Origin: Ignavibacteriales bacterium
GTDB lineage: Bacteria; Bacteroidota; Ignavibacteria; UBA10030
NCBI GenBank assembly: GCA_026390595.1
Contig: JAPLFQ010000008.1
Coordinates: forward strand, 62,001 to 126,000
Direction of reading: 5' to 3'
DNA length: 64,000 nt
Shown: positions 24,935-45,967 of the stretch, piece after piece
Numbering within the stretch: position 1 is the first letter of the stretch
Layout of the letters: every line of letters begins with the position of its first letter
Notes under the pieces: generated by a model
What the model was told of the DNA's origin: nothing
The model's input: only the letters and a program-made list of their open reading frames with translations
Database searches by the model: none
Program-made: the position numbers and the translations under genes

Positions 24935-26044
24935 TTATGTGGCGTCCTCAAACCATCGATTCGTTTTCTCAGACAAAGGAAACGAGGCGCCGTAGAAGCG
25001 TCTTCGATGGCGGACGAGTTCGGCAACGATGCTTATTGCGATTTCTTCTGCCGTGACCGCACCGATGTGAAGACCAATCGGCGCATGAACCCGCCTGAGT
25101 GTTTCAACGGGAACACCCTCTTGTCTCAGGCTGTCAAACGTCGCACGGACCTTTTTACCGCTCCCGATCATGCCGATATACCGGGCCGGTGTGTCGATCA
25201 CAAGGCGCAAGACTTCTTTGTCTGATTGATGAGCGCGGGTCACAATGACAATGGACATCGACCGCGTGATCGTAATCTTTGAAAGCGCATCACTCCATTC
25301 TCCCGAGATTGTCGCCGCCGCTTCAGGACAACGCGCGGGGGTCGCATAGTCTTCCCGGTCATCGACAATAGTCACAGCAAACCCTGTTGCCGCTGCAACT
25401 TTCGAGACGGAACGACCAACGTGCCCTCCACCGCAAATGACTAAGGCCTGTATTCCCGAGATCGGCTGGATGATGAGCTCGACTCCGCGCGTGGCGAGAC
25501 GCTCCACGTATTCTTCGCGCTGCGATCGTTGGACCTGCTGAAGGAATGTCTCTGGTTCGATCCCGAGCTCATGCAGGAGCGCCCTCAGAGGCTTGAGGTT
25601 TGGGGCGCGCTCATCTGATTCCTCCAGCACAATCCTGGACACAACTCCCGACAGATCGATCCGGCGAAGGAGTACACAATCCTGTCCACTGCTGCGCAGT
25701 GCAACCAATTGCGAAAACACATCGAGAGCATCTTCTCCGATTTTCTCAATCAATACGTCCACGTTGCCGCCGCAAATCATCCCTTCTTCTGAGCCGGATT
25801 CGTTCAGATCGAATTCTTTGATCACCGATTCCCCTGCGGCCGCAAAACGCTCTTTCGCTTCCCTCGTCACCTTTGCTTCAAGCAATCCACCGCCGACGGT
25901 CCCCAGGGCTCGCATTCCATGTTCGCAGATGAGCATCGAGGAACCGGTGGGCAACGGCGTCGATCCCGACGACGAGATGATTGTCGCAAGCACCACACGT
26001 TCGCGCGCTTTCAGAGCAGTGACAATTTCACCGAGGAGGTCCAT
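24935..26044 (-). CDS. xdhC: XdhC/CoxI-family molybdenum hydroxylase maturation factor
   Basis: A 369-residue XdhC/CoxI-family protein, needed to sulfurate and insert the molybdenum cofactor into xanthine dehydrogenase-type enzymes; it is not a catalytic subunit. The N-terminal domain has VLATIISSSGSTPLPTGSSM, GTVGGGLLEAKV and MICGGNVDVLIE, and the C-terminal Rossmann domain starts VICGGGHVGRSVSKVAA and continues GMIGSGKKVRATF. The reading frame extends 87 codons upstream, but homology fixes the start at MDLLGEI; no good ribosome binding site is visible there, and it lies 13 bases after the ygeY stop, so coupling is likely. Last gene of the purine operon, serving the two hydroxylases encoded upstream. 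Confidence 0.9.
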   Translation of the reverse strand: MDLLGEIVTALKARERVVLATIISSSGSTPLPTGSSMLICEHGMRALGTVGGGLLEAKVTREAKERFAAAGESVIKEFDLNESGSEEGMICGGNVDVLIEKIGEDALDVFSQLVALRSSGQDCVLLRRIDLSGVVSRIVLEESDERAPNLKPLRALLHELGIEPETFLQQVQRSQREEYVERLATRGVELIIQPISGIQALVICGGGHVGRSVSKVAAATGFAVTIVDDREDYATPARCPEAAATISGEWSDALSKITITRSMSIVIVTRAHQSDKEVLRLVIDTPARYIGMIGSGKKVRATFDSLRQEGVPVETLRRVHAPIGLHIGAVTAEEIAISIVAELVRHRRRFYGASFPLSEKTNRWFEDAT

Positions 26045-26057
26045 ACGTCGGGGGGGG

Positions 26058-27263
26058 TTAGCGAACCGTGGCGGAATCTGTATAGACCGATGGAAACATG
26101 GCGTACCACGCCATTGCCTTGACAAGCTGCTCAACGGCAATCTGCTCGGTGGCCATGTGCGCGAAAACTTCATTCCCTGGTCCAAAGCCGATGCACGGAA
26201 TGCCATGCATGCCCATGACGGCAACCCCATTTGTGCTGAAGTGCCATCGATTGACAACCGGTTTCCCGCCGAACAGCTTCTCGAATGCCGAAACTCCGCT
26301 CTCAAGCGCGGGGTGGTTCCCGGGCAGCAGCCAGGTCGGATAGTACTTTTTCGTTGGATATGTCAGCCCCTTCCAGCTCGGCACCGCGTAGTCACACACG
26401 ACAACCTCCGCCTGCGACTGCTTGACTCCCGGCAAGTCCTGGATTTCCTGGACTGCCGACATCAAGGTGTCGGTCGCCGCGAGACGGCGGTCGAGGTGGA
26501 TTGTCGAAGAGTCTGCAACGGCGCACAGTGAAGGAGATGTTGAACGAATTTCCGAAATCGTGACTGTTCCTTTGCCAAGAAACGGTTCCCCCGACAGACG
26601 CTCGTTGAGCTTCTCGATATCCTGTATGATCGGAGCCATCGTGTAGACCGCATTAACTCCCCGCTCGGGAGCTGACCCGTGACATGAAATCCCCTTTGTG
26701 GTAACCTGAATTTCCATCCGACCACGGTGCCCGCGATAGACACCCAGGTTTGTTGGCTCCGCGATGACAACGAGCTCCGGATGCAGCTTGTCCTCGTTGA
26801 TGATATATTGCCAGCACAGTCCGTCACAATCTTCTTCTTGCACGCTCCCCACGACATAAAGGGTGTAGTCATCCTCGAGCCCCAGGTCTTTTATCAGCTT
26901 CCCGCCGAACACAATTGACGCGAGCGCCCCCTTCATGTCACAGGCTCCCCGGCCATAGATAATGCCGTCTTTTTCCGCGCCTTTGAATGGATCGACCTTC
27001 CAGTTCGCAGGATTGCCGACATCAACTGTATCCACGTGAGCATCGAGGGCGATGACATGTTTCCCTTTGCCAATCCGGCCAAGGATATTGCCCATCGGAT
27101 CAATCGTCACCTCATCATACCGGCACCGTTCCATTTCCTCTTTGATGCGTTGAATGACCTGTTCTTCCTGCGAGCTGAGAGACTTGATCGCGATCAGGTC
27201 CCGCAGGAATTGTACTATCTGGCGCTCATTACGGTGTGCAGCCTGAAGAATCTCTTTCTTCAT
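26058..27263 (-). CDS. ygeY: M20-family metallohydrolase YgeY
   Basis: A 401-residue M20/ArgE-type zinc amidohydrolase, closest to YgeY. Metal and catalytic residues are visible in ALDAHVDTV (His, Asp), YGRGACDMKG (bridging Asp), QEEDCDG (catalytic Glu and ligand), VIAEPTNL and the C-terminal VFAHMATEQIAVEQL (His). In E. coli ygeY is in the ygeWXY-hyuA cluster linked to anaerobic purine breakdown, where it is thought to hydrolyse an open-ring ureido or amide intermediate. Here it sits 13 bases after a PLP lyase gene and 13 before xdhC, with a good AAGGA ribosome binding site. The exact substrate is not shown by sequence. Confidence 0.88.
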   Translation of the reverse strand: MKKEILQAAHRNERQIVQFLRDLIAIKSLSSQEEQVIQRIKEEMERCRYDEVTIDPMGNILGRIGKGKHVIALDAHVDTVDVGNPANWKVDPFKGAEKDGIIYGRGACDMKGALASIVFGGKLIKDLGLEDDYTLYVVGSVQEEDCDGLCWQYIINEDKLHPELVVIAEPTNLGVYRGHRGRMEIQVTTKGISCHGSAPERGVNAVYTMAPIIQDIEKLNERLSGEPFLGKGTVTISEIRSTSPSLCAVADSSTIHLDRRLAATDTLMSAVQEIQDLPGVKQSQAEVVVCDYAVPSWKGLTYPTKKYYPTWLLPGNHPALESGVSAFEKLFGGKPVVNRWHFSTNGVAVMGMHGIPCIGFGPGNEVFAHMATEQIAVEQLVKAMAWYAMFPSVYTDSATVR

Positions 27264-27276
27264 ACTTGTCCTTCGT

Positions 27277-28728
27277 TTAGCTTGCCATGGCGTTGAATTC
27301 GCCGATCAGCGTGTCGAAATATCCGACCTCATCTTCAAATAGACTGCGCCAGTATTGCGGATCCCACTGGGCGTTAATCTCTTCGTAGGTTTTTCCCTGT
27401 TGCTCCACCCACGTGTAATATTTCAGATTATGAATCGCCTTTCGGTCGTAGTACGTTAATTCCTTGAAATAATCAATCGATTGATGGGCGAGCGGTCCGG
27501 CTTGATCCCGCGCTGCTTCCACAGAAGAATATGCGCCCCGTTCTTTGCGAAGCTCTTCGAGCCGTGACTGGTAAAGATCAACCGAATCCGTGAAGATCGT
27601 GAAGATCACATCATCCTTTGTCAATTCAAAGTACTTCGCCGTCTTCATCGCTGCAAGCATGTTGCCGATGGATGATATGCCGAGCAGTGACAATCGATCA
27701 ACGTGTTGTTGTGGAATACCCAGCGACGAGAGATACTTCTTCCCCTCCGTTTCATTGAACAGCCTGAGAAGGCGCATGCAATCCTCATCGTCCACTGCGG
27801 CTACCGCGTCAGTATTCCGGACATTGTGAACCCACGGCACGTGTTTGTCTCCGATCCCTTCGATGCGATGGCCGCCGAAGCCATTCATGAACAACGTTGG
27901 ACACTGCAGCGCTTCACTTGCAACGATCTTGAGATGCGGATAGTGTTTCTTCAGGTAATCACCTGCAGCTATCGTGCCGGCAGACCCCGTGGCCGAAACG
28001 TACGCGGCCGCACGCAGGTTTGCTGAACGGAGTTCCCGGAATACTTCATCAATTGCCGGGCCGGTTACATTGTAGTGCCAGATGGGATTGCCGAATTCCT
28101 CGAACTGATTGAAAATGATGTTGATTGGATCCTTTTTCAACTCCCAGCATTTGTCGTAGATCTCTTTTACGTTCGACTCACATCCCTGCGTTGCGATGAT
28201 CTCTGCACCAATTTCACGGAGCCACTGGAATCGCTCTTTCGACATTTCCTCCGGGAGGATGGCCACCGGTGTGCAGCCGAGCAAAGCGCAATCGAAGGCT
28301 CCGCCTCTGCAGAAGTTGCCCGTCGACGGCCATACCGCTTTATGCCGTGATGGATCAAATTCGCCGCTCACGAGGCGCGGGACCAGGCAGCCAAACGCAG
28401 CCCCCACTTTGTGGGCTCCTGTCGGGAAATACTTGCCGATGAGACCTATGATGCGCGCATTCACACCGCTGAGGGCCGGGGGAATTTCGAGGTAGTTCAC
28501 CCCACCGAACATTCCGGTCGCTACATCATTCTTCCAGGTAATGCGGAACAAATTAAGCGGATTGATGTCCCAGAGTCCTACGCCCGAGAGCCGCTTCCTG
28601 ATTTCAGCAGGAATGAGCTGTGGGTCGCGCATCTGCGCAAACGTGGGGATAACAACTCCGCGTTTCCTGCAAAGAGATGCTGTCTTCTTGATGACATCAG
28701 GAAAGAGTTGAGCAATGATCTTTGACAT
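27277..28728 (-). CDS. Fold-type II PLP-dependent lyase in the purine operon
   Basis: A 483-residue pyridoxal-phosphate enzyme of the tryptophan-synthase-beta/cysteine-synthase fold. The PLP lysine is probably in YFPTGAHKVGAAFG, and the phosphate-binding loop is SATGSAGTIAAGDYL. WPSTGNFCRGGAFDCALLG fits the Asn contact to the cofactor. It is longer than diaminopropionate ammonia-lyase YgeX (about 400) and not an obvious orthologue, yet occupies the ygeX place between ygeW and ygeY. I infer it degrades an amino acid such as 2,3-diaminopropionate to a keto acid and ammonia. I start it at the ATG at 28728; an upstream GTG lies inside a repeat. An alternative is a desulfhydrase-like activity. Confidence 0.75.
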   Translation of the reverse strand: MSKIIAQLFPDVIKKTASLCRKRGVVIPTFAQMRDPQLIPAEIRKRLSGVGLWDINPLNLFRITWKNDVATGMFGGVNYLEIPPALSGVNARIIGLIGKYFPTGAHKVGAAFGCLVPRLVSGEFDPSRHKAVWPSTGNFCRGGAFDCALLGCTPVAILPEEMSKERFQWLREIGAEIIATQGCESNVKEIYDKCWELKKDPINIIFNQFEEFGNPIWHYNVTGPAIDEVFRELRSANLRAAAYVSATGSAGTIAAGDYLKKHYPHLKIVASEALQCPTLFMNGFGGHRIEGIGDKHVPWVHNVRNTDAVAAVDDEDCMRLLRLFNETEGKKYLSSLGIPQQHVDRLSLLGISSIGNMLAAMKTAKYFELTKDDVIFTIFTDSVDLYQSRLEELRKERGAYSSVEAARDQAGPLAHQSIDYFKELTYYDRKAIHNLKYYTWVEQQGKTYEEINAQWDPQYWRSLFEDEVGYFDTLIGEFNAMAS

Positions 28729-28746
28729 AAGTTTTTCCGGTACATT

Positions 28747-28829
28747 AACCACGGATTACGCTGAAATGACACAGATTGTCACGGATTTGACATCGGTGGA
28801 TATCCGCACTATTCGTGTTATCCGTGGTT
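28747..28829. repeat. Inverted-repeat element between ygeW and the PLP lyase gene
   Basis: Perfect 10-base inverted arms AACCACGGAT (28747-28756) and ATCCGTGGTT (28820-28829) enclose degenerate copies of the same text (CACGGATT, TCCGCACTATTCGTGTTATC). The right arm supplies the last residues (NHG) and the TAA stop of YgeW; the left arm abuts the start of the next gene. It resembles widespread low-complexity intergenic repeats in environmental genomes. Confidence 0.75.
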
Positions 28830-30014
28830 CCTCTTTCTTTTGGTGTTCATGAATTTGGTTATAGTCGGGACGGGTTTCTCCATTCTCGTCAGAAAGATGA
28901 TTGCCGCTATCACAAACGGTTTGAACCCAGCCTCCGCGTACGTATCGAGGCGATATTTCTCGAATACGTTCTTCGATACTTCCCCTTGCACACAGCTCAC
29001 ACCGGAGATGTCGGCTGGGAGACAATGCATGTAGAGGGCTTGTCCTTTCTTTGTAAGCTTCATCTTCTGTTCGTCACATTCCCAATTCTTGAACCTTGCG
29101 TTGTTCACAAGGCATTCCTTCTCCAGCCCGACCAAGCCCTGCTTGTCATTGGCAAAGAGAAGTTCTGTTCGGCGCTGCATAACCTGGTACGGCGCCCACG
29201 ATTTCGGGTACACCACGTCTGCGTCTTCAAACGCGGCCTCCATGCTGTCGACGACGGAAAATGACCCGCCGCGTTGACCGGCATTCTTCCGTGCGACGTT
29301 CACAACATCGGGGATCAGGTCATATCCCTTCGGGTAGGCCAGCGAAACGTTCATCCCGAACCGCGTCATCAGTCCTATGATTCCCTGAGGCACCGACAAC
29401 GGTTTCCCGTAACTCGGAGAGTAGGCCCAAGTCATCGCCAGTTTCTTTCCCCGGAGAGCTTCGAGGGAGCCAAAATGGTTCTTCAGCTGCAGAAGATCGG
29501 CGAGAGTCTGTGTCGGGTGATCGATGTCGCACTGAAGGTTCACGACGCTCGGCCTGCGATGGAGAACGCCTTGTTCAAAACCCTCCTGGACTGCCACGCC
29601 AACCTCACGCATGTACTTGTTCCCTTCCCCAAGAAACATGTCGTCCCTGATACCGATAGTTTCCGCGAGGAAGGAAATCATGTTCGCGGTTTCGCGAACC
29701 GTCTCGCCATGAGCGATCTGTGATTTCTCTTCATCAAGCTCGGAGAGACCCAGTCCAAGGGCGTTCACTGCTGACGCGAAGCTGAACCGTGTGCGTGTGG
29801 ACTTATCCCGAAATATCGAAATTGCCAGGCCGGTATCGAACGCCTTGAAGGGAATGCCCGCATTGTGAAGGTGTTTGAAGATCTCCGCGACCAGGACAAT
29901 TCCCTTAATCTCGTCGTCGCTCTTTTCCCAAGTGAGGAGAAAATCTTTGTTGAACATTCCGAGCTTGAGTTTCTTCAACTCTCGCATTGATGAGTGCAGC
30001 TGTTTCTGTGTCAT
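28818..30014 (-). CDS. ygeW: Knotted carbamoyltransferase YgeW
   Basis: A 398-residue aspartate/ornithine-carbamoyltransferase-fold protein of the YgeW type. The carbamoyl phosphate site is FRDKSTRTRFSFASAV (about 69-84), followed by LQCDIDHPTQTLADLLQL; the HCLPADISG motif near residue 340 is the carbamoyl-binding HCLP loop. YgeW is about 396 residues in E. coli. Its physiological direction is thought to be phosphorolysis of a carbamoylated purine breakdown product to carbamoyl phosphate. A carbamate kinase to make ATP from this is not in the window. The start has AGGGAG. It follows PreA by 37 bases. Confidence 0.93.
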   Translation of the reverse strand: MTQKQLHSSMRELKKLKLGMFNKDFLLTWEKSDDEIKGIVLVAEIFKHLHNAGIPFKAFDTGLAISIFRDKSTRTRFSFASAVNALGLGLSELDEEKSQIAHGETVRETANMISFLAETIGIRDDMFLGEGNKYMREVGVAVQEGFEQGVLHRRPSVVNLQCDIDHPTQTLADLLQLKNHFGSLEALRGKKLAMTWAYSPSYGKPLSVPQGIIGLMTRFGMNVSLAYPKGYDLIPDVVNVARKNAGQRGGSFSVVDSMEAAFEDADVVYPKSWAPYQVMQRRTELLFANDKQGLVGLEKECLVNNARFKNWECDEQKMKLTKKGQALYMHCLPADISGVSCVQGEVSKNVFEKYRLDTYAEAGFKPFVIAAIIFLTRMEKPVPTITKFMNTKRKRNHG

Positions 30015-30051: not shown

Positions 30052-31284
30052 TTACGCTTTCACGTGCATCTCGATGCATCCGTCCACCGGGCACACAAAC
30101 TGACAGAGACCGCAGCCGACACACCGTTCCCAGTCGACGTGAGGAGACTTGTTTGCCCGCTGGTCAATTGCATTGTGGCCTCCATCGCGGCATGCAACAT
30201 AACAGACATCGCACGCGATGCAGAGTTTGTCATTGATATGGCTGCGGATGGTTTGCCGCGGGAGATCGTCATGCATGACAATATTGGGAAGGGCCTTGCA
30301 GACAATTTCTGCCGGCGACGAGAACTTCATTTCATCGAGATAGTGTGACATCCCGCTTCGCAGGTCATCAATCACGCGGAAACCGTGATGCATAACCACC
30401 GTGCAGAACTCGACAACACCGGCCCCAACTGCCATGAATTCGACCGCATCGCTCCACGTCGATGCACCGCCGGTCCCGAGAATTGGAATGTCCACATTGC
30501 GCGCGATTTCGGCAATGGTGCGCAGCGTGATTGGCTTGATGGCCGGGCCCGTCATACCGCTGTACGTTGATTTTCCGGCCAGACTTGGATTTGGCGCGAA
30601 CGAGCGGATATCAATACCCATGAGGGCCTGGATCGAGTTTGAAGCCGTCAGTGCATCACACCCACTTCGCTTCACCGCCCTGGCCACCTCCACGATATCG
30701 GTAACATGGGGGGTGATCTTGATGGAAACCGGGATTCTCGACGCTGCTTCTTTGACCCATCGGGCGGTCAGCTCGGTCGCACTCAGGCTCTGTGCAAGCA
30801 TCTTTCCCGGGTCCTCACCGATATTTCCCTGGGGACACGAGAAACTGCATTCGATCAGATCCGCTCCCGCCTTTTCCAGCCGCGCAACCAGAGTCTGCCA
30901 GTCTTCTTTTCTTCCGGCCATGATGCTGGCTGCGACCATTTTGTCGGGAAACTCTCTTTTCAGCGTCCGGACATTGTGTTCAATCTTGTCGATGTGATGT
31001 TCGGAGATGAGATCGATGTTACCCATGCCGAACAGCTTTTTCCCTTCGTGTTCGAAGCTCGACATCATGGGATAGCACAAATCGACCAGCGTCCCCTCGA
31101 TTGATGTCGTCTTCAGAATCGCCCCCGCCCATCCCATCCGGAATGCGCGACGCACCATATCAAGGTCATCGGTCGAGGGAGCCGCCGCCAGGATGAACGG
31201 ATTCTCGAGGTGTATTCCCAAAAAATCATACGATAAATCCCGTGAAGGATAGATCTCAATTTCTGTCATGCGTTGGTATCCCAT
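30052..31284 (-). CDS. PreA-like dihydropyrimidine dehydrogenase subunit, divergent substrate loop
   Basis: A 410-residue protein with a dihydroorotate-dehydrogenase-type FMN barrel (about 10-320) and a C-terminal two [4Fe-4S] ferredoxin domain (CIACDVCYVAC and CVGCGLCQFVCPVDGC). Matches to PreA/dihydropyrimidine dehydrogenase include ECSFSCPQG, KITPHVTDIVEVARAVKRSG, TGPAIKPI and ILGTGGAST. After SCPQ, however, the loop reads GEDPGKMLAQSLSATEL and lacks both the Cys of mammalian dihydropyrimidine dehydrogenase and the GQ.PEL motif, so the substrate may not be uracil. It is 10 bases after its partner PreT. The pair resembles the domains of YgfK, so reduction of a purine-derived ring is the best guess. 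The ATG has an AGGGGAG site. Confidence 0.85.
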   Translation of the reverse strand: MGYQRMTEIEIYPSRDLSYDFLGIHLENPFILAAAPSTDDLDMVRRAFRMGWAGAILKTTSIEGTLVDLCYPMMSSFEHEGKKLFGMGNIDLISEHHIDKIEHNVRTLKREFPDKMVAASIMAGRKEDWQTLVARLEKAGADLIECSFSCPQGNIGEDPGKMLAQSLSATELTARWVKEAASRIPVSIKITPHVTDIVEVARAVKRSGCDALTASNSIQALMGIDIRSFAPNPSLAGKSTYSGMTGPAIKPITLRTIAEIARNVDIPILGTGGASTWSDAVEFMAVGAGVVEFCTVVMHHGFRVIDDLRSGMSHYLDEMKFSSPAEIVCKALPNIVMHDDLPRQTIRSHINDKLCIACDVCYVACRDGGHNAIDQRANKSPHVDWERCVGCGLCQFVCPVDGCIEMHVKA

Positions 31285-31294
31285 GCTTCTCCCC

Positions 31295-32542
31295 TCACTT
31301 CGCTGTCAGATATTGATGAATGGCGTGGGCTGCATACTTTCCATGCGCAACCGATTGGACGATCGTTCCTTCTCCCGCAATCATATCACCGCCGGCGAAC
31401 ACACCCCGCACCGATGTTTCAAAACTACCGCCGACTTTTACGTAACTGCCTTTTCGATCGAGATCGCCGAGCCACGCAGCCCCGATCGTCTGGCCGATCG
31501 CGATGATGACCGCGCTGGCGTCCAGCACGAAATCCGATCCCTTTACTTCAACAGGCACTGCTCTGCCGGATTTGTCTTTTCTCTTGCCAAGAGCTGTCTG
31601 GCGGCAAGTGATGCCTTCAACCTGTTTCTTCCCGGTGATTCGAACAGGATTGACGAGAAAGCGAATTTCCACCCCCTGTTTTCTGGCTTCGTCGAGTTCT
31701 CCCTTCCACACACGCATTTCTTTCTCGCTTCGGCGATAGATCAGGATCACGCTGTCAGCCCCCAGCCGTTTGGCGGTCGCTGCCGCGTCGAGCGAAACAT
31801 TGCCGCCTCCGATGATCACCACCTTTTTTCCCAGCTTCAACCCTGATGGCCTTGTCTTGGCTCGTTCGAGGAACGAAAGCACTGGAAACACTCCCTGCAG
31901 TTTTTCACCGGGAATTCCAATCATCCGATCTTCGCCGAGACCAACTGCAAGAAAAGTCGCTTCGTGCGTCTTCCGAATCCGGTCGAACCCCCTCGCATCC
32001 ACTGTTTGTTTCTTCACAGTGAAGAACTGCGAAAGGAATTCTGTATCCGAGTCAAGCTCCTTCGCGGCAAGCCGGAATGAAGGGATGCTGTTACGCGGTA
32101 CTCCACCGGGTTTCCCCGAGTCATAGACATCGACCCTATGTCCCATTTTCGCCAACTCGAACGCACAACCGAGCCCGGCGGGTCCGGCGCCGACGACAGC
32201 GACGCTCCTGGCGGATTCCCGAAATATTTCCGGCATCGAAAACCCTCGCCTACGTTCACGTTGGGTTGCGAAGAAATGCAGCTCGCGAATCTGAATGGGT
32301 GTGTCTTCTTTGCCTCGCGTGCACACTGACTGGCAGAATACTTCTTCCGGACAGATCTTGCCGCATGTGTTTGCTAATGCGTTCGAAGTTTTCACGACCT
32401 CGGCTGCTCCGATCACATTGCCCGATCGTATCATCGAAATGAACTTCGGCACGTCGATGTGAGTCGGGCAGGCCGTCATGCAGGGGGCGTCAAAACAATA
32501 CAGACAACGCTCTGCTTCAGTCTTCGCTTGTTGGGAATTCAT
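31295..32542 (-). CDS. PreT/GltD-like NAD(P)H oxidoreductase with Fe-S domain
   Basis: A 415-residue FAD protein of the glutamate-synthase small-subunit / PreT type. The N-terminal helical domain binds two [4Fe-4S] clusters: CLYCFDAPCMTACPTHIDV and NTCGKICPEEVFCQSVC. A FAD Rossmann motif VAVVGAGPAGLGCAFELA is at about 110-128, and an NAD(P) motif VVIIGGGNVSLDAAATAKRLG at about 240-260; it ends with the FAD motif GVFAGGDMIAGEGTIVQSV. It feeds electrons from NAD(P)H to the adjacent PreA-like subunit. I start it at MNSQQAK; the 17 residues before that (MNLKPETQNSKP...) are encoded by a repeat. Confidence 0.88.
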   Translation of the reverse strand: MNSQQAKTEAERCLYCFDAPCMTACPTHIDVPKFISMIRSGNVIGAAEVVKTSNALANTCGKICPEEVFCQSVCTRGKEDTPIQIRELHFFATQRERRRGFSMPEIFRESARSVAVVGAGPAGLGCAFELAKMGHRVDVYDSGKPGGVPRNSIPSFRLAAKELDSDTEFLSQFFTVKKQTVDARGFDRIRKTHEATFLAVGLGEDRMIGIPGEKLQGVFPVLSFLERAKTRPSGLKLGKKVVIIGGGNVSLDAAATAKRLGADSVILIYRRSEKEMRVWKGELDEARKQGVEIRFLVNPVRITGKKQVEGITCRQTALGKRKDKSGRAVPVEVKGSDFVLDASAVIIAIGQTIGAAWLGDLDRKGSYVKVGGSFETSVRGVFAGGDMIAGEGTIVQSVAHGKYAAHAIHQYLTAK

Positions 32543-32560
32543 ATGATCGAGGTAGTTCGG

Positions 32561-32659
32561 TTTTGAGTTTTGAGTTTCGGGTTTCAAGTTCAAGGTTCAA
32601 GGTTCCCGGACAATACAACGTCTTACATCTAACGTTTTACGTCTTACATTTTACGTCTT
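32561..32659. repeat. Degenerate tandem repeat tract between coxS-like and preT genes
   Basis: Three short texts follow each other: TTTTGAGTTTTGAGTTT-type copies, CAAGTTCAAGGTTCAAGGTTC copies, and ACGTCTTACA / ACGTTTTACG / ACGTCTTACATTTTACG copies. The last supplies the C-terminal residues (DVKCKT) and stop of the [2Fe-2S] subunit; the first reads into the upstream extension of preT. Confidence 0.7.
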
Positions 32660-33113
32660 CCACCTCTTTTATCGCATCAACGATTTGCTGATAGCCGGTG
32701 CAACGGCAAAGGTTACCGGAAATCGCAATCCGCACTTCCTCTTCGCTGGGTGTCGGGGAATGGTCGATCAGATCTTTGGCACTCATCAGCATACCGGGGG
32801 TACAAAAACCGCACTGCACCGCATCGTGGTCGAGAAACGATTCCTGCAATGGATGCAGTTTGTCGCCGTCAGCTAACCCTTCTATGGTAAGGACTTCCTG
32901 GCCTCGGATCTGCGGAACGAGAACAAGGCAGGAATTCACCGCCTGTCCGTTCAACAGCACGGTGCACGCGCCGCACTCGCCGATTTCGCATCCCCGCTTT
33001 GTGCCGGTGAGGCCCAGTTCGTCCCTCAAGAAATCAAGGAGTGTCTGGTTCGGGCGAACTTCGAGCTCGTACTTCCTGCCATTGATTGTCGTGTTGATCA
33101 GAACCAAATTCAT
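32637..33113 (-). CDS. Molybdenum hydroxylase [2Fe-2S] subunit (CoxS/XdhC-like small subunit)
   Basis: A 158-residue iron-sulfur subunit of a xanthine-dehydrogenase-family enzyme. The plant-type [2Fe-2S] motif GCEIGECGACTVLLNG is in the first half and the second cluster motif QCGFCTPGM with CRCTGY in the second half. Length is typical (150-170). I start it at MNLVLIN, which follows an AAGGATGG site; upstream ATGs add residues without counterpart. The last six residues and stop fall inside a repeat. It lies 74 bases after the FAD subunit and completes a three-subunit enzyme with 33188-34042 and 34039-36402. Confidence 0.93.
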   Translation of the reverse strand: MNLVLINTTINGRKYELEVRPNQTLLDFLRDELGLTGTKRGCEIGECGACTVLLNGQAVNSCLVLVPQIRGQEVLTIEGLADGDKLHPLQESFLDHDAVQCGFCTPGMLMSAKDLIDHSPTPSEEEVRIAISGNLCRCTGYQQIVDAIKEVEDVKCKT

Positions 33114-33187
33114 GAATCCATCCTTCATGTCGTCGTGGGCAAAGGACGCCTTCACCCTGCATGCGCGTCCTTTGCGGTTGCTTTTCG

Positions 33188-38958: not shown

Positions 38959-41294
38959 TTTTTCACCTCGGCGCTTGATTTCACTTTCACCGGCTCCCTT
39001 AGTTTCTCTATGGACAGAAGGACGACCTCATTGGTCGCAGGGAGCGAGAAGTCGGGTTCCGTTTCATGAGAGCCGACAGCGGAGACAGCATCCTTGATCG
39101 CCAACCAGGTAGCAAATCCAAGCATCAACGGGGGCTCTGCGACGGTCTTGCTTCCATGGATAGAATTCGGATGAGCCGCGTTCTCCAGAAGCCTGACTCG
39201 AAAATCGACAGGGATGTCTCTTGCCGTGGGAATCTTGTACGTGTCGGGCGAGTGCGTCATCAGGTTTCCTTCATGATCCCACTTGATTTCCTCGGTGGTG
39301 CACCAGCCAACTCCCTGGATATATCCTCCTTGGATCTGACCGATGTCAATTGCAGGATTGATGGAATCACCGGCGTCATGTAAAATATCTGTCCTCAGGA
39401 GCGTCACCGCGCCGGTGAGCGTATCCACGAGAACTTCAGAAACCGCCATGCCGAACGCATAGTACCGGAACGGTGTCCCAACCCCTTTGGCCTTGTCCCA
39501 TCCAATGCCCGGTGTTCGGAAATATCCTGTCGAGCTGAGGCTGATGCGGCGGAAGACCATCTGCGGCATCGCTTCAGCAAATCCGATCCGTCGTTCAGGG
39601 TGTTTGATGTCGAAGATGGTATCGTGTTCAAACCGTATATCCTCCGGTGACGTGGGAACCGCCGGGCGCTTCTCATTGAAGAACGAGGTGACCCCTTCAG
39701 AGATGCGCGCCTTGAGGATGTCGGTCGCGTTCTTCACTGCAGCGCCGTTCATGTCTGTCCCAGAGGAAGCTGCGGTGGCGGATGTGTTCGGTACCTTGGA
39801 TGTATTGGTCGCATTGACCCGAACACGGTCGATCTTGATGCCGAGTTCTGCTGCTGCGATCTGCTGCATCTTCGTGTGTAGCCCCTGTCCCATTTCCACG
39901 CCGCCGTGGTTGACCAGGACCGTGCCATCATTGTAGATGTTGACGAGAGCGCCCGCCTGGTTCAGAAAGGTCGTGGTGAACGAAATACCGAATTTCACCG
40001 GGGTGCAGGCAATCCCCTTTTTGTAGAACTCATTTGACGCGTTGAATTCTGCCACTGCGTTGCGACGCGCGACATACTCCGAAGAGTGCATCAGCTGATC
40101 GTATATGACGTGCAGGTTGTTGTTTTCCACAGTTTGGCCATAGTGCGTCACGTTGTTTGCTTCCAGCCCGTAGAAGTTCGTCTTCCGGATTTCTGCTGAA
40201 TCTCTGTGCAGGAATCTGGCAACGCGGTCGATGATCGTCTCCATAGCGGCCATGCCTTGCGGACCGCCGAAGCCGCGGAATGCCGTATTCGAGGGGAGAT
40301 TCGTTTTCCAGACCCGCGCCACGACAGTCATATGCGGTACATAGTATGCATTGTCGCAGTGGAACATCGCCCGTTCCATGATCGCAAACGACAAATCCGT
40401 GGCGCCGCCGGCATCGCTGTTGAGTTCGAACTTGACGGCGAGCAGCCTACCATCGTCATCGAATCCAGCTTCATAACGTGTCAGGAATCGGTGTCGCTTT
40501 CCTGTCATGATCATGTCATCATCACGGGAGAGTCGTATCTTTACGGGACAACGGCTTGCGTGAGCGAGGAGCGCACTCCAGCAGGCGACGTGGTTTCCCT
40601 GCGTTTCTTTGCCGCCAAACGCCCCTCCAATGCGCCTGACCTCGACAAGCACATCCTTTTTCTCAATACCGAGGACTTCAGCGACCAGCGTCTGCGTTTC
40701 CGACGGGTTTTGCGAACCGCAATAGACGGACATCTCATCCCCTTCGCCCGGCACGCAGAGAGAAGCTTGTGATTCAAGGTACCAGTGTTCTGCGGCGCCG
40801 GTTCTCAGTTCCCCCTGCAGCACATGCGGAGCAGATCGAAGAGCGGCTTTCGCATCCCCCCGCTGCATGCTTCGCTCAGGACCAAGGATCGTGTTTGCTA
40901 CCATGGCCTCGTCAATGCTCAAAACATGTTCGAGGGGTTCATAGTTGATCTCGATGAGATGTTCTGCAGCCCGGCACTCTGCATCGGTCATCGCCGCTAT
41001 CAGGAACACCGCTTGCCCGACAAACGCCACCTCCTCATGAGCAAGACATGGTTCGTCCTTGACAACAGGTCCCATCTCATTATGTCCCGGAATGTCATTG
41101 GCCGATAGCACAGAAACGACACCGGGTGCACGTTTCGCCTTCGTCAAATCGAATGAGACGATACGGGCATGCGCATGGGGGCTATAGACCACCCGCCCTG
41201 TCAAAGTGCTTGGGCTGGAGGGTATGTCATCGATGTACAGCGCCTCACCGGTTACGTGAAGCACTGCGCTCTCATGCGGCATTTGTTGATGCAT
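38955..41294 (-). CDS. xdhB: Xanthine dehydrogenase molybdopterin-binding subunit
   Basis: A 779-residue large subunit of the classical XdhAB xanthine dehydrogenase (called XdhB in Rhodobacter and Pseudomonas usage). Active-site residues are recognisable: the substrate-binding Glu in EHWYLESQAS, the MoCo motif GGAFGGKETQGN, the Arg in SNTAFRGFGGPQG that orients xanthine or urate, and the catalytic Glu in GSKTVAEPPLMLG. GVEMGQGLHTKMQQIAA is the second MoCo motif. An AAGGGTC site precedes the start. It is separated from the small subunit gene by an inverted-repeat element, and overlaps the next gene by four bases. Confidence 0.95.
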   Translation of the reverse strand: MHQQMPHESAVLHVTGEALYIDDIPSSPSTLTGRVVYSPHAHARIVSFDLTKAKRAPGVVSVLSANDIPGHNEMGPVVKDEPCLAHEEVAFVGQAVFLIAAMTDAECRAAEHLIEINYEPLEHVLSIDEAMVANTILGPERSMQRGDAKAALRSAPHVLQGELRTGAAEHWYLESQASLCVPGEGDEMSVYCGSQNPSETQTLVAEVLGIEKKDVLVEVRRIGGAFGGKETQGNHVACWSALLAHASRCPVKIRLSRDDDMIMTGKRHRFLTRYEAGFDDDGRLLAVKFELNSDAGGATDLSFAIMERAMFHCDNAYYVPHMTVVARVWKTNLPSNTAFRGFGGPQGMAAMETIIDRVARFLHRDSAEIRKTNFYGLEANNVTHYGQTVENNNLHVIYDQLMHSSEYVARRNAVAEFNASNEFYKKGIACTPVKFGISFTTTFLNQAGALVNIYNDGTVLVNHGGVEMGQGLHTKMQQIAAAELGIKIDRVRVNATNTSKVPNTSATAASSGTDMNGAAVKNATDILKARISEGVTSFFNEKRPAVPTSPEDIRFEHDTIFDIKHPERRIGFAEAMPQMVFRRISLSSTGYFRTPGIGWDKAKGVGTPFRYYAFGMAVSEVLVDTLTGAVTLLRTDILHDAGDSINPAIDIGQIQGGYIQGVGWCTTEEIKWDHEGNLMTHSPDTYKIPTARDIPVDFRVRLLENAAHPNSIHGSKTVAEPPLMLGFATWLAIKDAVSAVGSHETEPDFSLPATNEVVLLSIEKLREPVKVKSSAEVKK

Positions 41295-41463: not shown

Positions 41464-41469
41464 TATCTT

Positions 41470-42906
41470 TCAACCGTTTGTTTCACTCCAAAATTTCAGA
41501 AGGAGATTACGTGCGGCCGCGCGGCGAAACTCGGCGCTCCCGCGAACATCTGAAATCGGTTTGAAATCTGCATCAATCAAGCGACGCGCTTCTTCCACAT
41601 GCGCACGGTCCCATGGTTTTCCCTTCAGGAACGATTCCGTCGAGATGGATCGCTTTGTGCATTCCGACATACCGCCAAATGCCAATGTAATATCGTTGAC
41701 AACTCCGTTTTCATTCAGGTCCACCCTGAATCCGGCACTGACCGTCGAAATGTCGAGGTCCCGCCGCTTCGAGACTTTGTATGAACGTATGAGCGACGAC
41801 GACGACTGCCGCGGCAGCACAATGGCCACGATCAATTCGTCAGGCTGACGATCGGTTTTCCGATACCCCTTGACGAATGCGTCTGCTGCAACAGTTCGTG
41901 TTCCACGGCGGCTTGTAAGAATCACCGACGCACCGTACGCGATCAACGCCGGCAGCGCGTCGCCGATCGGAGAAGCTGTGCCGATATTGCCACCAAGTGT
42001 GGCGACGTTCCGGATTTGTCGCGCAGCGAAGAGCGTGAGCATCTCATGAAAGGCCGGAAAATCGCTCTTCACGTGCATCATCACGTCATTGATCCGGACG
42101 CCGGCGCCAATCCTCAGGCTGCGATCATCCCGGACAACTGCCCGGAGTTCTTCGACTCTTGAACAATCGATGATATGCGGGAGTAGTTCAAATTTCTTTG
42201 TCACCTTGAGGGCCACATCTGTCGCTCCGCTGATCAAGGTCGCTTTCGGATGCTTTTCGATCAGCTCCAGGCATACATCCACTGTTACAGGTTGATCGTA
42301 GCGCTGTGTCTGTGCAACGATTGAGATGCTCTTGTGGTGGATGGAGTTCAGAAGTCCAACAATCCGTGATTCATCGTCGCTGAAATGATCACTTCCCTTG
42401 GCATCACAAGCGGACATAGCCGCTTCTATAATCGGCTCATATCCGGTGCAGCGGCAGAGGTTGCCCGCGAGAGCCTCTGCAATCTCATCCCGGGATGGTC
42501 GGCCCGCCTCTTTATAGAGGGCAAACAGCGTCATCACGATGCCCGGGGTGCAGAATCCGCATTGGCTGCCATGTGAATCAACCATGGCCTGCTGAACAGG
42601 ATGCAGATCCCCGGAAGGATTCTTCAAGTTTTCTACTGTAATCAGCTGTTTTCCATGGAGCATCGGGAGGAAAAGGAGGCAGGAATCGACAGCTCTGTAG
42701 TTCATGCTCCCATCTGCGTTCCGATCTCCGAGCACAACTGTGCACGCACCGCAATCCCCTTCCGCGCATCCTTCTTTCACTCCCCGGTGTTTGGGAAGCG
42801 AGCGCAAGTACTCGAGGACCGTGGTTGTCGGTTTCAGTTGCAGCGAAGAATCGAAGGCAATGTCAACGATCGTGCCGTCGAGAATGAACTGGATCGAGTT
42901 GGTCAT
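41470..42906 (-). CDS. xdhA: Xanthine dehydrogenase small subunit ([2Fe-2S] and FAD domains)
   Basis: A 478-residue subunit combining two [2Fe-2S] clusters (GCAEGDCGACTVVLGD; SQCGFCTPGIVM with CRCTGYEPI) in residues 1-175 and an FAD domain (about 190-478) with ATLISGATDVALKVTK and IRNVATLGGNIGTASPIGD. This fused arrangement is that of bacterial XdhA. With XdhB it forms a full xanthine dehydrogenase, distinct from the three-subunit enzyme at 32637-36402. The gene is first in its block: repeats lie on both sides. Confidence 0.95.
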   Translation of the reverse strand: MTNSIQFILDGTIVDIAFDSSLQLKPTTTVLEYLRSLPKHRGVKEGCAEGDCGACTVVLGDRNADGSMNYRAVDSCLLFLPMLHGKQLITVENLKNPSGDLHPVQQAMVDSHGSQCGFCTPGIVMTLFALYKEAGRPSRDEIAEALAGNLCRCTGYEPIIEAAMSACDAKGSDHFSDDESRIVGLLNSIHHKSISIVAQTQRYDQPVTVDVCLELIEKHPKATLISGATDVALKVTKKFELLPHIIDCSRVEELRAVVRDDRSLRIGAGVRINDVMMHVKSDFPAFHEMLTLFAARQIRNVATLGGNIGTASPIGDALPALIAYGASVILTSRRGTRTVAADAFVKGYRKTDRQPDELIVAIVLPRQSSSSLIRSYKVSKRRDLDISTVSAGFRVDLNENGVVNDITLAFGGMSECTKRSISTESFLKGKPWDRAHVEEARRLIDADFKPISDVRGSAEFRRAAARNLLLKFWSETNG

Positions 42907-42935
42907 GTGAAAATCAAATTAATCAATCGACATTT

Positions 42936-43019
42936 ATTATTGAGAGCTGGGAATTGTCACTGCCCCATGATCTGGACAATATCTAATGTCCAATATCGAA
43001 TCATGACTATTGAAGTGTG
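42936..43019. repeat. Degenerate intergenic repeat between hyuA-like and xdhA genes
   Basis: Contains GGGAATTGTCACTG, GGACAATATCTAATGTCCAA and TATCGAATCATGACTATTGAA; GGACAATA and ATGTCCAATATCGAA recur as near-copies at about 53720-53785. It begins just after the hyuA stop and ends close to the xdhA start, with no coding potential. Confidence 0.5.
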
Positions 43020-43029
43020 TTCTCTTCAG

Positions 43030-44418
43030 TCAGCCCCCCCACGCAGCCGCGAAACAAGAACGCTTCACATACCTACCCCGACCAGCCTTGCCAAGCCACA
43101 CATCCCGATCGACGATAATCTCACCGCGGGAAATGACCGTGTCCGCGTTTCCCCGCACCGTTATTCCCTCGTACATTGAATAGTCAACTTGCATATGGTG
43201 GGTCGACGCGGAAATTATGTGTTCCGCGTTCGGGTTCCAGATCACGACGTCTGCGTCACTTCCGACTTCCACCGCGCCTTTCTTCGGATAGAGTCCAAAC
43301 AACTTCGCTGGATTGACAGAAACCAGGTCTACCCACTGTTTCAAAGAGAGCCTTCCCTCGTTCACTCCATAATGATAGAGAAGCTGCAACCGGTTCTCAA
43401 TCCCGGGTCCACCATTGGGGATTTTTGTGAAGTCGTTCAAGCCCGCGCTCTTCTGGGTTTTGAACATGAACGGACAGTGATCGGTCGAAACAACCTGGAT
43501 ATCGCCGGCGCCCAGCCCTTTCCAAAGTGCATCCTGATCGGCGGGAGACCTCAAGGGGGGTGTCAGGACAAACTTCGCTCCTTCGAAATTTGGCCGGGAA
43601 AGGTCTTGCTGGGTCAACAAGAGATACTGCGGACATGTTTCTCCAAACACGCGGGTGCCGTTCTTTCGAGAACGGGAGATTTCTTCCAGAGCTTGAGCGG
43701 ATGAAACGTGTACGATGTAGACCGGGAGATCCGCGCTTCTGGCCAGTGCAAGGACGCGACGGACAGCCTCAGCCTCGGCGCTCGCGGGACGCGTCAGGGC
43801 ATGTTCAATCGGAGCCGTTCGCCCTTCGGCAAGCGCCTTGTGAACAAGATGGTCGATGGCACTTTCGTCTTCGGCGTGTACTGCCACGAGTGCTCCTCGT
43901 TTGCCGGCTCGGATCATCACCTGCAGGATCGTTGCGTCATCCACCATCAACGCTCCCGGATATGCTGTGAAGAGCTTGAAGCTCGTCACGCCTTCGTCGA
44001 CGAGTGCATCGATCTCATTGATCCGGCCTTCCTCCACATCCACCACTATCATGTGCAAACCGTAGTCGATCGAAGCCTTCGATGCCTTCTCCCGCCAGGT
44101 GGCATAGGCCTCGCGCAGAGTGTGCCCCTTCGATTGGGTGGCAAAATCGATAATGGAGGTTGTTCCACCAAATGCTGCAGCGCGCGTGCCGGACTCAAAA
44201 TTGTCGCTGGAAACAGTTCCCCCAACAGGTGCATCCAGGTGAGTATGGACGTCGATGCCGCCTGGGATGACGTACTTCCCTGTCGCGTCGATCGTTTGCT
44301 CTGCTTTCCGATCAAGCCCTTGACCGACGGCACTGATAACTTCATTCTCAATGAACACATCGGACGCTACGACACCTTGTGGTGTCACTACCTGTCCGTG
44401 TATAATCAAAATTGCCAT
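43030..44418 (-). CDS. hyuA: Dihydropyrimidinase/hydantoinase (HyuA-like)
   Basis: A 462-residue cyclic amidohydrolase. Metal ligands: DVHTHLDAP (HxH), the carbamylated Lys in VTSFKLFTAYPG, His in VAVHAEDE and VYIVHVSSAQ, and Asp in VVSTDHCPF. It hydrolyses a cyclic imide or hydantoin ring. In E. coli the counterpart hyuA (ygeZ) lies with ygeWXY. I start at MAILIIHG because family members begin there; a Met two codons earlier is equally possible, and the long upstream extension is not supported. No clear ribosome binding site is visible. Confidence 0.9.
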   Translation of the reverse strand: MAILIIHGQVVTPQGVVASDVFIENEVISAVGQGLDRKAEQTIDATGKYVIPGGIDVHTHLDAPVGGTVSSDNFESGTRAAAFGGTTSIIDFATQSKGHTLREAYATWREKASKASIDYGLHMIVVDVEEGRINEIDALVDEGVTSFKLFTAYPGALMVDDATILQVMIRAGKRGALVAVHAEDESAIDHLVHKALAEGRTAPIEHALTRPASAEAEAVRRVLALARSADLPVYIVHVSSAQALEEISRSRKNGTRVFGETCPQYLLLTQQDLSRPNFEGAKFVLTPPLRSPADQDALWKGLGAGDIQVVSTDHCPFMFKTQKSAGLNDFTKIPNGGPGIENRLQLLYHYGVNEGRLSLKQWVDLVSVNPAKLFGLYPKKGAVEVGSDADVVIWNPNAEHIISASTHHMQVDYSMYEGITVRGNADTVISRGEIIVDRDVWLGKAGRGRYVKRSCFAAAWGG

Positions 44419-44424
44419 CGTCAT

Positions 44425-44635
44425 GAATGCAAGGATTGTCGGAGGATGACCGGGGGGATTGGATGCGCTGGCGTGCATCGTCTGCTGCAGAGAATCCAAA
44501 ACGGTGACGTACAACAATCGAAACCGCGCAAACATCCCGATCACGGCACGCGCAAGTCAAAGTACGTCAGTAATGATTAAACGGCAAGGGGCACCGCCAA
44601 GGAAGGGAGCAAATGGGAATGCGACGCTGCATCTC
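44425..44635. other. Gap between the permease and hyuA genes
   Basis: A 211-base stretch with no convincing gene, repeat or hairpin. It is the largest gap within the purine operon that lacks a recognisable repeat, so a promoter or processing site could be here, but I see no clear boxes. Confidence 0.3.
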
Positions 44636-45967
44636 TTACGATTGCCGGGCGATTCTCATGCTGGTGATCTTCCAGGCAATGGGCGCGGTCAGAACCGCGG
44701 CGACAGCGAAGAGTGTGGCATTGGTATAGGTAGTCTGCTCCGACAACGCCGCGGTCAGTGCGGTGACGAGACAGACCGTCGGCAACGCTGTCATCGCGAT
44801 GAGTCCTGCGACGTTGAGGGGGATTTTGAACGGTCTCGGCTGCTCCGGGTTGCGGATGCGGAGAACAATAAGGGCGACAAATTCGAGGAAGAGCGCTGCG
44901 CCGTACAACGTCACATCGATGATGAGAAGATCGCCAAACTCCCAGAATACCATGCCGCTCACGACGAGCGCACAGACGACGATAGATACATGCGGAACAT
45001 TGTGCTTTGGATGTACTTTGCTGAGCGACGCTGGGAGCAATCCATCGTCTGCCATGGCTTTCGGCACACGGGAAATGGCGAGCAGGATGGAAAGAAAAAG
45101 GCCCAGCGCGCTCGCAATACCCCCGAACGAAAGTATGGCGCCGAGCCACCACCCTCCTATGTGCAGGCCAAGCGATGGAAAACCCTGGGCGGTCAGCACT
45201 TCCGCGTCCATCCCTGCGGCTGTCCCGGTCCAGATGGAAAGGAAATAGAATCCGACGATAAGGAAGAACGCGACGACAATAGAGATGAGGTACGATCTCG
45301 CGGGACGATGTACTTCTTCAACAAAGGAGGATGAATTGTCCCATCCGAGAAAATTCCACATCACGGTATACAGACCCATACCGAAGACGGTGAATCCCAT
45401 CCCGTGCGTTTGAAAGTTCACTCCCGACAGGGAAAAAGAGAACCCTTTCGTTACAGCCACACCAAAAAGTATTCCGAAGGGGACAAGAACGCAAAGGCCG
45501 AGGAGGACGGAGCTTCGCCCGACGGGAATGATTCCGAGGAGATTCAACACAGCAGCAACCCAGATGATGGCAAGACAGATGGGAATTTTGTATACACCCG
45601 CTTCCGGATAGAAGAAGCTCAGGTACTGGACAAACAGGACGGGATAGATCGCAAGATCCGTGAAGGTGAAGAGCCACGACCACCACCCTTCATAGAATCC
45701 CCATTTCATGCCGAGGCCTGATTTCACCCACTGGTAGTAACCCCCGTTGAGCGGCATCATGCCGTTCAGTTCAAGAACCATGAGAATGGAAGGGAGAACC
45801 CAGAGAAGCGGAGTGATAAGAATGAGCGCCAGCGCGAACCCTCCTCCGACGTACTGGAGAACAGGTTCGAGCCCGTACGGGCCGCCTGAAACCGTGAAGA
45901 AGACGACCGCTGTCAGTTGGAGGGGGCGGAGAAGACCGCGACCGCTTCCTGCTATGGGTTGGGTCAT
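44636..45967 (-). CDS. APC-superfamily amino acid/purine-type permease
   Basis: A 443-residue membrane protein with about 12 hydrophobic segments. The start of segment 1 reads VVFFTVSGGPYGLEPVLQYVG and segment 3 region GGYYQWVKSGLG, the helix-breaking Gly-rich motifs of the APC fold, and DNSSSFVEEVHRPARSY matches the loop between segments 6 and 7 in amino acid permeases. It is the first gene of the purine operon, so it may import a purine catabolite or amino acid; sequence alone supports only APC permease. Confidence 0.85.
   Translation of the reverse strand: MTQPIAGSGRGLLRPLQLTAVVFFTVSGGPYGLEPVLQYVGGGFALALILITPLLWVLPSILMVLELNGMMPLNGGYYQWVKSGLGMKWGFYEGWWSWLFTFTDLAIYPVLFVQYLSFFYPEAGVYKIPICLAIIWVAAVLNLLGIIPVGRSSVLLGLCVLVPFGILFGVAVTKGFSFSLSGVNFQTHGMGFTVFGMGLYTVMWNFLGWDNSSSFVEEVHRPARSYLISIVVAFFLIVGFYFLSIWTGTAAGMDAEVLTAQGFPSLGLHIGGWWLGAILSFGGIASALGLFLSILLAISRVPKAMADDGLLPASLSKVHPKHNVPHVSIVVCALVVSGMVFWEFGDLLIIDVTLYGAALFLEFVALIVLRIRNPEQPRPFKIPLNVAGLIAMTALPTVCLVTALTAALSEQTTYTNATLFAVAAVLTAPIAWKITSMRIARQS

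Follow-up and report, generated by a model that had tools for sequence, protein, structure and literature searches.

A minus-strand operon of an Ignavibacteriales bacterium probably encodes a variant of reductive urate catabolism, with PreT/PreA in the place of YgfK and no YgeX

Introduction

Can a gene cluster that resembles the Escherichia coli purine set xdhD-ygfM-ygfK-ssnA/ygeWXY-hyuA, and from which YgfK and YgeX are missing, still degrade urate, and by which enzymes? The question is raised by 15 consecutive genes, all on the minus strand, in the genome of an Ignavibacteriales bacterium (NCBI GenBank assembly GCA_026390595.1). The genes lie at positions 24935-45967 of the window, i.e., the whole 64,000-nucleotide stretch analysed (contig JAPLFQ010000008.1, positions 62,001 to 126,000 of the forward strand), and are transcribed from 45967 down to 24935. 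An original prediction, made from the DNA letters without database searches, had proposed an anaerobic purine/urate catabolism island with a split YgfK at this place. Our analysis indicates that the operon probably encodes reductive, oxygen-independent purine/urate catabolism, namely the published yanthine pathway with two swapped modules. On sequence evidence, the change of the ring-reducing enzyme is well supported and the loss of YgeX is clear; two candidate substitutes for YgeX are encoded in the cluster.

Reductive urate breakdown via yanthine (2,8-dioxopurine) is already published for E. coli and C. difficile (PMC12507026); the cluster described here is therefore a variant. According to that report, urate is reduced to yanthine by XdhD-YgfM, yanthine is dearomatised by YgfK, or by UacX in C. 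difficile, and the ring is opened by SsnA and then HyuA (PMC12507026). The two ureido groups are removed by YgeW (or UacY) and YgeY, and diaminopropionate is cleaved to pyruvate by YgeX (PMC12507026); which ureido group is cleaved first is under dispute (PMC12990295, a commentary). SsnA has been reported in Pseudomonadota, Bacillota, Chloroflexota, Actinomycetota, Spirochaetota, and Elusimicrobiota (PMC12507026). PreA, PreT, Bacteroidota, and Ignavibacter are not mentioned in the main text of PMC12507026, and its neighbourhood figure scores any PF00291 protein as YgeX, so that a swapped lyase would stay hidden there. In the open-licence PMC literature, no report describing this variant from Ignavibacteria, or a counterpart from haloarchaea, was found.

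Results

Gene content of the cluster

The cluster genes were assigned by family scans (curated models and Pfam) and are listed in the order of transcription. XDH denotes xanthine dehydrogenase, PLP pyridoxal phosphate, and Mo molybdenum.

44636..45967, minus: APC-family amino-acid permease (Pfam PF13520); adjacent, probably not core
43030..44544, minus: HyuA, hydantoinase/dihydropyrimidinase (TIGR02033, 608 bits; above the cut-off of 393)
41470..42906, minus: XDH1 small subunit, 2Fe-2S and FAD (TIGR02963, 571 bits; above the cut-off of 467)
38955..41294, minus: XDH1 large Mo subunit, xanthine dehydrogenase (TIGR02965, 1040 bits; above the cut-off of 849.5)
37690..38958, minus: ThrCl, threonine-synthase-like PLP enzyme (PALP)
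36392..37693, minus: SsnA aminohydrolase (TIGR03314, 472 bits; above the cut-off of 455.5)
34039..36402, minus: XDH2 large Mo subunit, XdhD counterpart (start inferred; below the cut-off of every listed model)
33188..34042, minus: XDH2 FAD subunit, YgfM counterpart (NF043083, 201 bits; below the cut-off of 310)
32637..33197, minus: XDH2 2Fe-2S subunit (NF041020, 210 bits, and NF043084, 190 bits; both below cut-off)
31295..32593, minus: PreT, FAD/NAD(P)H/4Fe-4S electron-input subunit (Fer4_20 and Pyr_redox_2; matches positions 441-836 of the YgfK model)
30052..31284, minus: PreA, FMN subunit (NF006183, 428 bits; above the cut-off of 335)
28818..30014, minus: YgeW, knotted carbamoyltransferase (TIGR03316, 605 bits; above the cut-off of 500)
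27277..28752, minus: PLP491, cysteine-synthase/CBS-like PLP enzyme of 491 amino acids (PALP)
26058..27263, minus: YgeY, M20 hydrolase (TIGR03526, 571 bits; above the cut-off of 321.5)
24935..26044, minus: XdhC-type Mo-enzyme maturation factor, YqeB-like (PF13478/PF02625; NF045664, 314.5 bits, below the cut-off of 350; start inferred)

The 15 genes thus belong to the families originally proposed: HyuA, SsnA, YgeW, and YgeY exceed curated cut-offs, two Mo-hydroxylases are present, and the XdhD counterpart is encoded as three separate subunits with its own Mo, FAD, and iron-sulphur genes. The cut-offs of the models for YgfK, XdhD (TIGR03313), and YgeX were missed by all cluster proteins. From the XDH1 large subunit through XdhC, the intergenic gaps are at most 65 bp or negative, so this stretch reads as a single operon, and the cluster as a whole appears to be a real, conserved operon. 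The listed starts of XdhC and the XDH2 large subunit are probably too long; judging from where the family match begins and from the next ATG, the true starts probably lie near 26044 and 36402, respectively. Relatives of the APC permease were not found at E<=1e-8 in the fetched loci, three of which (G490, G228, and G078) extend beyond HyuA on its upstream side, and the permease is therefore probably not core.

An exchangeable reductase slot

All 27 candidates for YgfK in the genome were scored against TIGR03315, and none exceeded the cut-off of 835.3. A YgfK-like protein of 1253 amino acids (L001) was rejected as YgfK; it reached 310 bits of the required 835, and its sequence and neighbours point to a formate-dehydrogenase-type protein with a GltD-like domain. 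PreT and PreA stand in the slot that holds YgfK in sister genomes, as had been proposed. Read as homology, the idea of a split YgfK was not supported. The match of PreT, at 249.6 bits, falls on the C-terminal half of the YgfK model (positions 441-836). PreA is classed as a protein of the DPD/PydA type (DPD, dihydropyrimidine dehydrogenase); TIGR03315 is not among the 25 of 35 families listed for it, and comparison of window-type PreA with the N-terminal half of YgfK yielded a profile probability of only 8%. Because the remaining pairings of PreA-type with YgfK-type domains ranged over 2-94%, a remote kinship of PreA and YgfK is conceivable.

A scan of named genomes with SsnA yielded 25 loci, mostly from records titled Ignavibacteria/Ignavibacteriae/Ignavibacteriales, Bacteroidetes/Bacteroidota, or Chlorobi, with one from Acidobacteria and one from KSB1. 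Window-type PreA (77-88% to the window protein) was found in 11 loci, a YgfK-like protein instead in five, and signs of a PreT-PreA fusion in two (one cut off); the remaining seven were unassigned for reductase, in several cases owing to the end of a contig or of the fetched stretch. In other respects the sister genomes retain the frame ThrCl-SsnA-(reductases)-YgeW-PLP491-YgeY, the hydrolytic genes being kept while the reductive module varies. This module is PreT/PreA (PreTA) with a three-subunit XDH2 in some of them and a short YgfK with a fused Se-type XDH in others. In L090, for example, PreTA and XDH2 are replaced by a YgfK-like protein of 756 amino acids and a fused XDH of the Se type that exceeds the cut-off of TIGR03311. 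In some relatives, a more distant carbamoyltransferase (40-44%) replaces the close YgeW.

The class sample comprised 178 genomes, in which G490 is the other member of the window's genus. SsnA was found at E<=1e-60 in 47 genomes, 23 of them over the model cut-off. Among these 47, window-type PreTA occurs in 10, a PreT-PreA fusion (open frames of 831-883 amino acids) in nine, full YgfK in 17 (16 over cut-off, one split across two contigs), and short YgfK in nine; the reductase type of G243 was assigned from its locus. The four genome sets have zero overlap among the matches listed. Of the last two genomes, G035 carries a UacX-like protein near YgeY, and the contig of G396 stops 19 bp after SsnA. 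One further full-YgfK genome (G414) gave no SsnA match. This distribution is the pattern expected of alternative enzymes for one step.

Two unusual arrangements were observed among the relatives. Loci L079, L137, and L138 (L079 and L138 are from the same genome) carry two SsnA genes, about 60% and 36% to window SsnA, of which the second adjoins a PreT-PreA fusion; these clusters are perhaps hybrids of two cluster types. In L048 (G152), PreT-PreA-HyuA with aminotransferases and an NCS1 permease adjoins a block of YgeY, carbamoyltransferase, ThrCl, and PLP491, which appears to set pyrimidine and urate end-modules side by side.

Two candidates for the terminal lyase

YgeX (NF006058) gave no match in the genome at E<=1e-20, in keeping with its proposed absence. 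A second ygfK/ygeX set elsewhere, which the original prediction had named as grounds for its rejection, was looked for in the genome and none was found. ThrCl is the favoured candidate for the terminal lyase and has a slightly better than even claim to act as a diaminopropionate ammonia-lyase in YgeX's stead. It is favoured because of its profile match to YgeX and because a ThrCl relative is the only match of the three PLP-enzyme profiles in two haloarchaeal clusters. The profile match covers 314 columns with 99.6% probability for ThrCl, as against 51 columns with 77% for PLP491; the YgeX model (NF006058, cut-off 276 bits) gives ThrCl 51.6 bits and does not list PLP491 at E<=0.001. By a strict count (about 66% identity or more, or near YgeY), at least 37 of the 46 YgeY genomes have ThrCl next to SsnA or in the neighbourhood of YgeY. 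A looser count gave 44 of 46, drawn from 36 genomes at E<=1e-70 and 10 from neighbourhoods, and some scan hits of 37-40% are unlinked to YgeY.

The haloarchaeal evidence comes from two megaplasmids, a Natrinema sp. DC36 plasmid (L186) and Haloarcula marismortui pNG700 (L187), that carry a urate-type cluster. On the Natrinema copy, on which the gene families were tested, the cluster encodes Mo enzymes, an LLM (F420-type) oxidoreductase, a HyuA-like protein, an SsnA-like protein (280 bits, cut-off 444), a UacY-like D-aminoacylase (36%), and a ureidase-type hydrolase. In both clusters, a 46-47% relative of ThrCl is the only match of the ThrCl, PLP491, and YgeX profiles in the stretches read. The haloarchaeal "thrC" is probably a catabolic lyase.

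Several observations count against this assignment of ThrCl. ThrCl is closer to threonine synthase than to YgeX in sequence and fold (33-36% to the top solved enzymes), and it exceeds the general threonine synthase model TIGR00260 (227 bits, cut-off 167). It lacks the functional residues Asp120 and Asp189 of YgeX; the former is Thr in 51 of 51 sequences and the latter Asn in 44 and Ser in seven. YgeX-type enzymes are also present in six of the 44 PLP491 genomes. These six are among the seven of the 178 class genomes with YgeX over cut-off; in five of them the YgeX stretches were read, and neither PLP491 nor YgeY was found on the same stretch.

A biosynthetic threonine synthase is nevertheless judged unlikely for ThrCl. 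Two other proteins of the genome exceed threonine synthase cut-offs (TIGR00260, 289 vs 167; PRK08197, 594 vs 303), and ThrCl misses the closer model PRK08197 (288, cut-off 303). in the 39 readable of 51 sequences (Leu in 32, including the window, Thr in six, Cys in one); the other 12 were dropped because the search pattern was not matched.

The alternative that PLP491 replaces YgeX, with ThrCl as an accessory enzyme, has a less than even probability. In the window, PLP491 occupies the position between YgeW and YgeY that ygeX takes in E. coli. PLP491 occurs in 44 and YgeY in 46 of the 178 genomes: both in 44, PLP491 alone in none, YgeY alone in two, and neither in 132 (Fisher p = 8.8e-40, uncorrected for relatedness). 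On the strength of this co-occurrence, the idea that PLP491 has nothing to do with the pathway was rejected. The two exceptions are a contig that ends inside YgeY (G401) and a genome (G423) in which a cysteine synthase A-type enzyme (TIGR01139, 364 bits, cut-off 351) occupies the same slot, between XdhD and YgeY (L189, 7866-8918); the latter hints that the PLP491 reaction may be a beta-replacement or beta-elimination. Against PLP491 as the YgeX substitute stand the short profile match, the two haloarchaeal clusters with ThrCl and no PLP491 match in the stretches read, and a Bosea plasmid that carries a PLP491 relative in the vicinity of an interrupted YgeX relative. On this Bosea vaviloviae plasmid (L184, 11163-22127), the neighbours of the PLP491 relative are RidA, gamma-glutamyltransferase, an M20 hydrolase, a thiamine pyrophosphate enzyme, and the YgeX relative, which is split between two frames; the set may form a pathway for an amino acid derived from diaminopropionate. 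PLP491 relatives (43-44%) on Bosea and Rhizobium plasmids lie near M20 hydrolases and TauE/SafE exporters, neighbourhoods that point to chemistry on substituted alanines. The AlphaFold model of PLP491 was poor (mean pLDDT 58.5, 11 close sequences); its fold matches were cysteine synthase, CBS, and beta-cyanoalanine synthase, and added nothing beyond the sequence.

The pocket of PreA

In pig DPD, N609, N668, S670, N736, and T737 hold 5-fluorouracil, and N668 forms a hydrogen bond with its O4 (PMC10970046). Window PreA shares the two-module flavoenzyme plan of PreT/PreA dihydropyrimidine dehydrogenase and pig DPD, including N609, N736, and C671, but differs from them by N668S, E611D, and T737S, and in its SsnA/XDH context. 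The full uracil-binding set (N609, N668, N736, and T737) is thus not present. All 18 pyrimidine-type sequences, made up of 16 class sequences plus E. coli PreA and pig DPD, have Asn at the position of N668, whereas Ser stands there in 18 of 18 window-type PreA sequences (15 genomes) and in 11 of 11 fusions (9 genomes); sequence counts exceed genome counts because some genomes were fetched twice. The 16 class sequences were named pyrimidine-type by similarity, eight of them having HyuA on the fetched stretch, and within the set known function is confined to pig DPD and E. coli PreA. E611 is replaced by Asp in all 29 window-type and fusion sequences, in which N609, N736, K574, K709, and the catalytic C671 are kept.

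Because PreA has Ser where the pyrimidine-type proteins have the uracil-binding Asn668, it is most likely a yanthine reductase. The loss of N668 would be chemically sensible, since yanthine has no oxygen at C6, the equivalent of uracil O4. In the tree of the FMN domain, window-type, pyrimidine-type, and fusion sequences are each monophyletic. When the UacX-like protein of the C. difficile-type cluster of Cetobacterium was added, window type and fusions grouped together (0.993), so Ser668 may have a single origin in the two. The Cetobacterium protein itself has Ser aligned at 668, beside a gap (the Cys loop is missing), and keeps E611. Ser at 668 in the YgfK types rests on an alignment of barely related domains and was not used as evidence.

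The two Mo-hydroxylases

The functional residues E232, R310, and E730 of R. capsulatus XDH are retained in the alignment of XDH1, which also exceeds the cut-offs of TIGR02963 and TIGR02965. The XDH2 large subunit and its 23 close sequences have Asp, Arg, and Glu at these positions. XDH1 thus fits a xanthine dehydrogenase, and XDH2 fits an altered purine hydroxylase run as a reductase.

Other genes of the window and the genome

One carbamate kinase over the cut-off is encoded in the genome, outside the cluster. It lies within C6:52838-65757 (L105), flanked by ornithine- and aspartate-carbamoyltransferase-like genes, and is the only kinase match over cut-off. Near it in L105 are a PLP enzyme of the gamma family and a gene set of the formate-dehydrogenase type that includes a GltD-like domain; all these neighbours were named from sequence.

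Downstream of the cluster, window positions 19371-24752 hold a separate uronate set, consisting of an alginate-lyase/GH88-like protein, KduD, a cupin, and a GntR/LacI-type regulator. The alginate-lyase/KduD genes (19371-23128) fall outside the urate cluster.

Discussion

In the proposed pathway, XDH1 would convert xanthine to urate, and the three-subunit XDH2 would reduce urate to yanthine. PreT would pass electrons from NAD(P)H via FAD and iron-sulphur clusters to the FMN of PreA, which would dearomatise yanthine. Reduced yanthine would then be converted by SsnA to ureidomethyl-hydantoin and by HyuA to 2,3-diureidopropionate. YgeW would remove one ureido group by phosphorolysis, giving carbamoyl phosphate that the carbamate kinase from another part of the genome could use, and YgeY would hydrolyse the other. 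Finally, 2,3-diaminopropionate would yield pyruvate and ammonia by a non-YgeX PLP lyase, most likely ThrCl, and PLP491 would catalyse an additional PLP-dependent step on these C3 amino acids. For XdhD, YgfK/UacX, SsnA, HyuA, YgeW, YgeY, and YgeX, the reactions are taken from the E. coli and C. difficile work (PMC12507026), and the activities given to PreTA, XDH2, ThrCl, and PLP491 are predictions. Gene identity, gene order, co-occurrence, the non-overlap of reductases, and the pocket residue were read from the sequences themselves.

The cluster and the E. coli set have SsnA, HyuA, YgeW, YgeY, and Mo-hydroxylases in common, and the same order of reactions is proposed (PMC12507026). In contrast to E. 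coli, PreT/PreA stands for YgfK, XDH2 is in three subunits, YgeX is absent and two other PLP enzymes are present, and no carbamate kinase lies in the cluster. The C. difficile variant is similar in that a DHO_dh-type FMN enzyme, UacX (PF01180), replaces YgfK (PMC12507026), and the UacX-like Cetobacterium protein shares the Ser aligned at DPD 668 with window PreA. UacX has no FAD domain and ferredoxin has been suggested as its donor (PMC12507026), whereas PreT supplies an NAD(P)H/FAD module here. The C. difficile type has UacY and retains YgeX; here YgeW is kept and YgeX is absent. The original notion of a variant pathway stands, as the published yanthine route with a differing reductase and lyase.

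Several points weigh against this reading. The XDH2 large subunit scores below the cut-off of every listed model. E. coli XdhD Glu606, proposed for yanthine formation (PMC12507026), falls in an insertion absent from XDH2 and is thus not alignable. The cluster has no NCS2-type permease, the one found in the genome being on another contig, and a search at E<=1e-40 returned no other PreA from the genome that might serve pyrimidines. HyuA is 58-61% to the HyuA of three pyrimidine-type PreTA loci of the class and so does not discriminate between urate and pyrimidine. A hidden second reductase in some class genomes is possible, because the class scans took the best few candidates per genome (four for YgfK), the non-overlap refers to the matches listed, and the search for UacX was less than genome-wide.

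It could be argued that the cluster mainly degrades pyrimidines or hydantoins, with PreT/PreA reducing uracil, HyuA opening dihydrouracil, and the XDH genes as mere neighbours. PreA and HyuA do pass the cut-offs for PreA and dihydropyrimidinase, respectively, other PreTA-HyuA loci of the class resemble pyrimidine loci, and the lack of another PreA in the genome at E<=1e-40 makes a side role in pyrimidine breakdown possible. As the main function, it is very unlikely. Asn668 is replaced by Ser in every window-type PreA, PreTA and YgfK alternate in one slot of a single conserved frame, and three sister genomes (G055, G251, and G478) hold both window-type and pyrimidine-type PreA. Furthermore, SsnA, YgeW, YgeY, and two XDHs are not known to have a role in a pyrimidine pathway. 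The original prediction had named use of the genes for pyrimidine breakdown as grounds for its rejection; the check made on this point found PreA without the uracil-binding Asn668, and the choice of purine/urate over pyrimidine is supported. That the substrate is a related N-heterocycle (another oxopurine, isoguanine, or a pterin) instead of urate is highly improbable: the low XDH2 scores, the Asp of XDH2 at the E232 position, which is Glu in XDH1, and the missing NCS2 permease in the cluster would agree with it, but XDH1 keeps all three aligned XDH residues and exceeds the cut-offs of xanthine dehydrogenase models, and the downstream enzymes are the ones established for urate in E. coli and C. 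difficile (PMC12507026).

A wider reading is offered tentatively, as less likely than not. The C3 end of the pathway would use two PLP enzymes. The "threonine synthase" family found here, in one Acidobacteria and one KSB1 metagenome-assembled genome, and on haloarchaeal megaplasmids may be a widespread diaminopropionate lyase, and PLP491 may catalyse a new reaction on ureido- or diamino-alanine, e.g., direct ureido elimination from albizziin. The yanthine-reduction step would be filled within one class by at least five interchangeable enzymes, including an NAD(P)H-linked reductase of the DPD type, in two subunits, whose specificity would have shifted from uracil to yanthine.

The pathway, so far described mainly for gut bacteria, would be extended to environmental Ignavibacteria-type bacteria. 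A gut setting was not borne out: the record titles of several named relatives indicate fen or peat, lake sediment, or groundwater. Ser at DPD position 668 beside SsnA is a concrete sequence marker that would split yanthine reductases from pyrimidine reductases sharing one annotation name. "Threonine synthase" genes, archaeal ones included, are flagged as possible catabolic lyases, and the natural reductase swaps provide enzyme studies of urate-lowering pathways with ready-made material for comparison.

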